Assembly (NCBI RefSeq): GCF_005576615.1
Contig: NZ_CP040330.1
Span: 1,426,001 to 1,490,000 of the forward strand
DNA from: Natrinema versiforme
GTDB lineage: Archaea; Halobacteriota; Halobacteria; Halobacteriales; Natrialbaceae
Direction: 5' to 3'
Length of the DNA: 64,000 nt
Below are positions 58,251 to 59,687 of the stretch, piece by piece (positions within the stretch are counted from its first letter, which is position 1; every line of letters starts with the position of its first letter). Under the pieces are notes generated by a model. It made no database searches. It was not told the DNA's origin and saw only the letters and a list, made by a program, of their open reading frames with translations. The position numbers and the translations under genes were made by a program.

Positions 58251-58315
58251 GTGTTTTCTCGTTCAGAAAAACCGGACTGCTTTTCATAGTTATACCGAAA
58301 CGAACAGCTATACCA

Positions 58316-58663
58316 GTGAGTGAGGAATCTGACCTGTCTACATTGCTCGCGGTCCTCGACGACGAGTACGCACGGGATATCCTCACCCACACGAGCGTCG
58401 AACCCATGTCTGCCAGTACATTGAGCGAACGGTGTGACGCGTCCCTCCCGACGATCTACCGGCGGCTCGACCGTCTCGAGGAGTGTCACCTCGTCACCGA
58501 AGAGACGGAACTCGCACCGGACGGCAACCACTACAGCGTCTACAGTGCGAACCTCGACCGACTCGAACTGTCGCTGGAGGACGGCTCGTTCGCCCTCGAG
58601 TTGACGTACCGTGAGGAAGATGTCGCCGACAAGTTCACTCGCATGTGGGAGGGGATGCGATGA
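58316..58663 (+). CDS. Winged-helix (ArsR-like) regulator paired with DUF7521 protein
   Basis: 115-residue regulator, GTG start. LSTLLAVLDDEYARDILTHT, MSASTLSERCDASLPTIYRRLDRLEE (helix-turn-helix) and a wing GNHYSVYSANLDRLEL followed by an amphipathic end. The start is supported by a TATA box AGTTATAC (58288-58295) about 25 bases upstream, implying a leaderless GTG transcript. It overlaps the following membrane protein gene (ATGA). Probably regulates its own operon. Confidence 0.82.
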   Translation: MSEESDLSTLLAVLDDEYARDILTHTSVEPMSASTLSERCDASLPTIYRRLDRLEECHLVTEETELAPDGNHYSVYSANLDRLELSLEDGSFALELTYREEDVADKFTRMWEGMR

Positions 58664-58971
58664 GTCGGAGCGTCGTACGGGTCGACGAGGCGACGATGTT
58701 CGAGCTGTTGACCGTCGCGAGTCTGTTCCTCGTTGCCCTCTTCGGGACGGTGATCGCCTATCAGGCCTACCGCGGCTACCGACGCAACGACGCGTCGTCG
58801 ATGCTCTACCTCGCGGTCGGGCTCCTCCTGTTGACGCTGTTTCCGTTCCTCGTCAACGTCGTGGTCACCACGCTGGTCAGCCCGGAACGAATCGTCATCG
58901 CACTGCTCGAGAACGTGAGTCGACTGGTCGGTCTAGTTGCGATCACCTACTCGCTGTACGGGCAGCATTGA
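58660..58971 (+). CDS. Three-helix membrane protein (DUF7521-like)
   Basis: 103-residue protein with three hydrophobic helices (LLTVASLFLVALFGTVIAY, LAVGLLLLTLFPFLVNVVV, VSRLVGLVAITYSLYG) and a basic loop YRGYRRNDAS. This matches the haloarchaeal DUF7521 family, which commonly follows an HTH regulator gene. The ATG at 58660 overlaps the regulator stop, so translation is coupled. It may transmit a membrane signal to the regulator; this is inference from the pairing. Confidence 0.8.
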   Translation: MSRSVVRVDEATMFELLTVASLFLVALFGTVIAYQAYRGYRRNDASSMLYLAVGLLLLTLFPFLVNVVVTTLVSPERIVIALLENVSRLVGLVAITYSLYGQH

Positions 58972-59046
58972 CAGCGAGTAGTGACTGGAAACGTGTAGGG
59001 CCGAAGCGATCCCGGGACCACCGTTTCTGCTACCAGTGATAGGAAG

Positions 59047-59184
59047 GCGACGCATATGTCCCCGCGAGAGGGGGATCGCGGGGACTGGGGCAGGCGTCGC
59101 AACCCGTGGGGATGATCAGATGCGGGGAAGCATCGGGGGACCACCAAGGCGTGCAGGGCTGACCTCTCGTCCCCCGTGTGGTCC
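59047..59184 (+). ncRNA. Candidate structured RNA or leader element
   Basis: A cluster of long perfect stems with no convincing protein. GCGACGC (59047-59053) pairs with GCGTCGC (59094-59100), enclosing TCCCCGCGA (59059-59067) paired with TCGCGGGGA (59076-59084). GATGC (59119-59123) pairs with GCATC (59130-59134). GGACCAC (59138-59144) pairs with GTGGTCC (59178-59184), in competition with GGGGGA (59135-59140) pairing with TCCCCC (59170-59175). It ends about 125 bases before the Usp gene. The transcribed strand is not certain. Confidence 0.4.
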
Positions 59185-59309
59185 ATTCCGTGCCGTCCTA
59201 TTAGTGATACGAGCGCGTTTTCTGGGTCGGAAAATCCCGTGCCGTCCGTCGATATCGATTCCGATTTCGGTTCCACAGCTTTCTTCGATATCGTCGCCGT
59301 AGGACCGCT

Positions 59310-59687
59310 ATGCAATATCTCGTCGGAACCGGCTCCGTTCACACGACGGCGGCGATCTGTGACTATCTCGGCGACCGAGTCACCGACGACGATGCGGTGA
59401 TCGCAGTCGCCGTCGCCGACGACGCGACGGCACGCCGTGATGGCGAGGAGGCGTTGAACGTCGCGCCCGTTCGACTCGCGGCTGCGGGCGACGTCGAGAC
59501 GGAGCTTCGATCGGGGACCCCCGGCGAGGCGCTCCTCGAGGCGGCGGCCGAGTTCGACGCCGACGAGATCGTGATCGGCACACACAGCGGCGACCCCGAT
59601 GCGGCGCACGAACTCGGCTCGACCGCACGGCGGCTTCTCACCGATTCGAGCCGGCCAGTCGTCGTCGTTCCGATTCCGGACCTCTAG
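59310..59687 (+). CDS. Universal stress protein-like (UspA fold)
   Basis: 125-residue single-domain protein. MQYLVGTGSVHTTAAICDYL, then VIAVAVADDA, ELRSGTPGEALLEAAAEFDADEIVIGTHSG and the C-terminal LTDSSRPVVVVPIP are the USP strand-loop pattern. The ATP-binding GxxGxxxGS segment is present only in weakened form (GTHSGDPDAAHELGSTA). The upstream 330 bases contain the candidate structured element. Probable stress or nucleotide-binding role. Confidence 0.75.
   Translation: MQYLVGTGSVHTTAAICDYLGDRVTDDDAVIAVAVADDATARRDGEEALNVAPVRLAAAGDVETELRSGTPGEALLEAAAEFDADEIVIGTHSGDPDAAHELGSTARRLLTDSSRPVVVVPIPDL

Follow-up and report, generated by a model that had tools for sequence, protein, structure and literature searches.

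A conserved structured element upstream of a Usp gene in Natrinema versiforme is a candidate regulatory small RNA sharing an operator with a convergent HTH/DUF7521 operon

What is encoded by the nested stems that lie directly upstream of a Usp gene in the haloarchaeon Natrinema versiforme? They occupy positions 59047-59184 of a 64,000-nucleotide (nt) stretch of contig NZ_CP040330.1 (assembly GCF_005576615.1, positions 1,426,001 to 1,490,000; hereafter the window, whose own numbering is used throughout). A sequence-only reading had proposed that they form mutually exclusive pairings resembling a switch or attenuator ahead of Usp, or equally an independent small RNA. Comparison of homologous loci within the family Natrialbaceae, which showed a conserved RNA structure, a conserved promoter geometry, the strand and a shared operator, indicates that the region quite probably encodes a structured regulatory small RNA (sRNA1) on the minus strand, starting near position 59175, with an operator shared with the convergent operon for a helix-turn-helix (HTH) regulator and a DUF7521 protein.

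All of the stems named in the sequence-only reading were found where it had placed them, that is, GCGACGC (59047)/GCGTCGC (59094) and, nested within, TCCCCGCGA (59059)/TCGCGGGGA (59076), followed by GATGC (59119)/GCATC (59130) and by GGACCAC (59138)/GTGGTCC (59178) and GGGGGA (59135)/TCCCCC (59170). The assertion that such stems are unlikely by chance did not hold for this GC-rich sequence on its own, but comparison across species bore it out for the nested pair as well as for GGGGGA(C)/(G)TCCCCC. The folding energy of 59040-59190 corresponded to a z-score of -1.62 on the plus strand (12 of 200 shuffled sequences folded equally well) and of -2.65 on the minus strand (1 of 200); for 58998-59175, the extent assigned to sRNA1, the values were +0.68 and -1.41, respectively. 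As the folding signal of the single sequence is weak, the case for a structured RNA rests on cross-species comparison.

The predicted RNA (58998..59175, minus strand) was delimited by homologues, covariance-model matches and covariation, with its 5′ end presumed at 59175 and its 3′ boundary drawn to an invariant 10-mer. From 5′ to 3′, it would comprise a first hairpin, a conserved linker rich in pyrimidines and another hairpin whose loop is C-rich. In the 5′ hairpin (H1; 59135..59175), defined by folds and counted pairs, GGGGGAC (59169-59175) pairs with GTCCCCC (59135-59141) around an inner stem (59162-59166 with 59146-59150). The linker, CCCCGCATCTGATCATCCCC (59104..59134), is conserved in the alignment of 26 loci and is a candidate segment for pairing with targets. 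The second hairpin (H2; 59047..59100) is made of the outer stem GCGACGC/GCGTCGC (59094-59100 with 59047-59053) and the inner stem GTCCCCGCGA/TCGCGGGGAC (59076-59085 with 59058-59067), which closes the C-rich loop (59068-59075). The 10-mer GCTTCGGCCC (GGGCCGAAGC on the plus strand; 58998..59007), near the presumed 3′ end of the RNA, is identical at 26 of 26 loci of the genus despite variable flanks, and is also kept in most other genera. It lies ∼27 nt from the DUF7521 stop codon and, read on the plus strand, would fall in the 3′-untranslated region (3′-UTR) of the convergent operon; its function may lie in the RNA, in this 3′-UTR, or in both.

At the DNA level, the region was detected in 25 of the 28 other members of the genus, and no genome sampled from another genus gave a match. 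When named genomes were searched with the HTH protein, Natrinema came out as the nearest genus, with additional relatives in Natronorubrum, Halopiger, Natrialba, Haloterrigena, Halobiforma, Natrarchaeobius, Salinadaptatus and other Natrialbaceae. RNAalifold, run on plain MAFFT alignments, was hampered by insertions and deletions and gave poor consensus structures on either strand; the structure was therefore written from one homologue (L003). When this structure was laid on an alignment of 15 sequences made from sequence only, 93.3% of the cells paired, seven pairs showed changes in both partners, and none of 500 shuffles attained the covariation score. The covariance model derived from it extended to other genera, with 39 matches over 66 loci. 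In the alignment of these 39 homologues, which, unlike the 15-sequence alignment, had been fitted to the model and favours it, 24 of the 35 pairs changed on both sides, as did 21 of the 23 pairs in the H2 helices; no shuffle out of 500 did as well on any of five measures, and shifting the partners by one to three columns lowered pairing from 90.5% to 40-52%. Thus, covariation, which the sequence-only reading had suggested as a check, is strong. More distant genera carry other complementary stems in place of H1, for example GGGACGTGAT/ATCACGTCCC, GGGAGATCACA/TGTGATCTCCC and TGATGAAATG/TGTTTCATCA; when a strict H1 pattern was searched across the order, the matches outside the family looked like chance. 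One match of the covariance model (L053) was false and lay in a coding region. In another locus (L098, genome G105), the region of the second hairpin is doubled with N between the copies, perhaps at an assembly join. A small protein was ruled out, since the 27 loci checked for coding potential have no reading frame or start in common, and their insertions and deletions do not come in threes.

The strand of the RNA was read from its pairs and from its promoter. G-U and A-C cells swap between the strands; on the minus strand, they stood at 37:9 and 82:28 in two alignments, with one pair contributing 11 of the 37 and with structures written for the minus strand, which introduces a mild bias. Many genera of the Natrialbaceae share a promoter of fixed build in front of the RNA, composed of the palindrome TTTTC-N7-GAAAA, a gap of exactly 12 nt, and ACTAATA or ACTATTA (64 loci), and in 57 of the 64 loci the distance from this box to the first GGG is 23 nt. 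In the window, the palindrome, a conserved putative operator to which no strand is assigned, is TTTTCCGACCCAGAAAA (59218..59234), and the TATA-like box ACTAATA occupies 59199..59205 on the minus strand. An archaeal TATA box is expected to be centred near -27; the box is centred ∼27 nt before 59175 and thus fits a start at that position. By comparison among loci, the RNA would have a promoter of its own whose TATA box is correctly spaced from the 5′ end, and the bias towards G-U together with the polarity of the promoter places it on the strand opposite Usp.

This placement bears on the proposal that the region belongs to the leader of the Usp mRNA and acts there in cis, as a switch or attenuator that alternates between GGACCAC/GTGGTCC and GGGGGA/TCCCCC. 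The stems do exist on the plus strand too, and Usp (59310..59687, plus strand; Pfam Usp, 1.9e-12) follows downstream in most loci of the genus. Yet G-U/A-C bias and promoter polarity both point to the minus strand, so that the element would not lie on the Usp strand within the transcript, and the plus-strand fold of 58998-59175 was no better than shuffles (the positive z-score given above). Neither are both pairings conserved: GTGGTCC lies upstream of the presumed start and recurs in no homologue examined, the GGACCAC/GTGGTCC stem being present in the window genome only (among 26 homologues compared), and the GATGC/GCATC hairpin is confined to the window genome (L001) and its nearest relative (L002), which leaves the competition between pairings without support. 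In 10 of 40 homologous loci, the flank that was fetched contains no Usp homologue. A conserved promoter-like element, read by eye in the alignment, precedes the Usp ATG by ∼25-35 nt, and a leader is often absent from haloarchaeal mRNAs (72% are leaderless in Haloferax volcanii, as quoted in PMC6560208); the region is thus probably outside the Usp transcript, with Usp a divergent neighbour outside the system. A switch ahead of Usp is therefore very unlikely, whereas the independent small RNA, named as its alternative in the sequence-only reading, is favoured by strand bias, promoter and covariation alike. A conserved structured RNA in a haloarchaeon might also be a known one (signal recognition particle [SRP] RNA, RNase P RNA, 6C RNA or a member of another family) too divergent to be seen at first look, the more so as haloarchaeal SRP RNAs were reported to be missing from Rfam (PMC7002113). 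This is extremely improbable: no Rfam family matched at the gathering threshold, and a lax threshold gave only 6C RNA (RF01066; 17.3 bits compared with a gathering threshold of 47, E 7.2), which is alike in having a hairpin with a C-rich loop and differs in that the match covers one hairpin only. The archaeal SRP RNA model (RF01857) did not match at the locus, and the SRP RNA of this genome lies elsewhere (C2:2569080). RNase P RNA gave no Rfam match at the locus either (it was not sought genome-wide), and the window contains no tRNA or tmRNA.

The operon convergent with the sRNA1 gene, from which Usp is divergent, spans 58316-58971 on the plus strand. It encodes an HTH_20/ArsR-like regulator of 115 aa (58316..58663; Pfam HTH_20, 6.4e-09), presumed to bind the operator, and a DUF7521 protein of 103 aa (58660..58971; Pfam PF24365, 1.5e-16) that has hydrophobic segments by hydropathy and is likely a membrane partner. 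An operator of the same type as that of the RNA, TTTTCTCGTTCAGAAAA (58254..58270, no strand assigned), precedes the HTH gene and is conserved: almost all orthologous loci have it, ∼60 nt upstream of the HTH start. Both promoters have their operator immediately ahead of the TATA region. Genome-wide, TTTTC-N7-GAAAA occurs in only four places, of which three lie upstream of the HTH gene, the RNA and nreA, respectively, and the fourth has a different core. Of 125 family genomes, 86 have the HTH ortholog (79-98% identity); it co-occurs with the RNA across genera, and the convergent order of RNA and operon is kept across genera as well. Of 40 additional loci with the HTH ortholog, most share this layout, with operator, TATA-like box and RNA-like hairpin at the corresponding position; in several of them, the operator is a variant. 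The loci examined around HTH relatives of other families (48-62% identical) contained no such RNA, and the operator was found in only one of them (L124). There, palindromes of the form TTTTC-N7-GAAAA stand at positions 169 and 1887 near a relative with 58% identity, and the operator may thus predate the Natrialbaceae. In two further loci (L287 of G013 and L289 of G027), a gene for an S49/SppA-like membrane peptidase, assigned by motif only, likewise has the operator in front of it; in G027, this site is ∼1 kb from the HTH gene, and the arrangement is not seen within the window.

Behind the operator upstream of nreA (L118, G000:C2:1529640), which lies outside the window, a second RNA-like element stands at the same spacing. 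It is composed of the conserved hairpin GAGGTTCGG...CCGAACCTC and the invariant TGCCTCTGACA, and nreA, identified by Pfam Nre_N and Nre_C, comes next (loci L118, L282, L285, L286, L290 and L300-L329). A model of this element matched in each of the 20 Natrinema genomes sampled, and also in other genera of the Natrialbaceae. With a strict pattern, the operator starts exactly at -58 in 22 of 30 loci, the rest being variants recognized by eye, and in L282 the hairpin is swapped for a different complementary stem. The element may be a separate RNA or the leader of nreA. Divergent RNA loci beside the HTH ortholog (L186 and L187, in part L185) bear the TGCCTCTGACA motif, which suggests that the two RNA families are related. 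In genome G113, a match of the nreA-element model (C1:3451126-3451181, E 9.2e-6) lies ∼370 nt upstream of the HTH ortholog, in divergent and not convergent orientation.

Taken as a system, the small HTH protein most likely binds the operators at the RNA promoter and at its own operon, and regulator, membrane partner and RNA would then answer to one signal. Activation is our first guess and repression the alternative; from a position directly upstream of the TATA region, activation was inferred for the haloarchaeal regulator CsmR (PMC13286277). Once made, the RNA would most likely pair, through its linker or its C-rich loop, with G-rich stretches of other messages. Several points count against this account. 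Beside the weak folding of the single sequence and the mild bias in the strand counts, we infer both transcription of the RNA and, from operator sharing only, operator binding by the HTH protein. Three loci with the HTH ortholog (L169, L188 and L189) show no RNA. Duplexes predicted between the RNA and the mRNA of the HTH operon scored no better than shuffles, and the exact complement of the linker, GGGATGATCGG, occurred at 2 to 12 sites in each of ten genomes, without convincing recurrence in orthologous genes; those groups of sites that are shared are small and consist of the RNA loci themselves or of coding sequence.

The absence of predicted pairing beyond the overlap also speaks against the RNA acting mainly in cis, as an antisense or 3′-end partner of the convergent HTH/DUF7521 mRNA with the 3′ ends overlapping at the 10-mer. 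Such a role would agree with the convergent order kept across genera and with an invariant 10-mer so close to the DUF7521 stop codon, and hvo_1211s/cirA provides a precedent for 3′ overlap (PMC13286277); however, elaborate hairpins and a linker would be unnecessary for it, and we regard it as unlikely. Alternatively, the RNA may be a sponge or scaffold that binds and controls a protein, for example the HTH or the DUF7521 protein, without pairing to messages. Its co-conservation with the HTH protein and its strongly conserved structure would fit, and nothing speaks specifically against it, but a conserved unpaired linker suggests pairing, even if it is compatible with a sponge all the same; we give this possibility a small chance. 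Regulation of other messages by sRNA1 remains our preferred reading.

To our knowledge, it is uncommon for an archaeal small RNA to have a known regulator or to be conserved in more than one genus. sRNA1 is conserved across the family, covaries strongly and has a short and rare operator in common with the adjacent regulator, and this combination makes its control and function directly testable. It also suggests a candidate role for an HTH/DUF7521 pair of unknown function. What makes the locus interesting is its link with a small regulator and with another RNA element. Tentatively, and with slightly less than an even chance in our estimate, the parts may form a circuit kept across the Natrialbaceae, in which the HTH regulator and the DUF7521 protein are linked to few operators (those of their own operon and of two structured RNA genes) and the regulator is largely devoted to RNA genes.

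In the literature searched, no paper on small RNAs of the Natrialbaceae was found, although work beyond that literature is possible; the nearest systems come from other archaea. By description, sRNA132 of H. volcanii resembles sRNA1 in having two stems and a pyrimidine-rich linker. Its homologues were reported only in Haloferax, it is tied to phosphate starvation, and, unlike for sRNA1, neither an adjacent HTH/DUF7521 operon nor a shared operator was described (PMC6560208). sRNA162 of Methanosarcina mazei is likewise tied to the bicistronic mRNA of a regulator and works via a single-stranded linker, but this mRNA is its target for base pairing in trans (PMC3510493); for sRNA1, in contrast, the operon is convergent, the operator is shared, and no pairing with the operon mRNA was found. 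hvo_1211s of H. volcanii, associated with RosR and cirA, is also a regulator-linked RNA convergent with a regulatory gene. It differs in its length of 420 nt, in being antisense to almost half of cirA, and in being controlled by RosR, which is encoded elsewhere; no conserved structure was described for it (PMC13286277). As far as this comparison shows, with sRNA132 compared by description only, sRNA1 would represent a previously undescribed RNA family of a kind already known, the archaeal small RNA.
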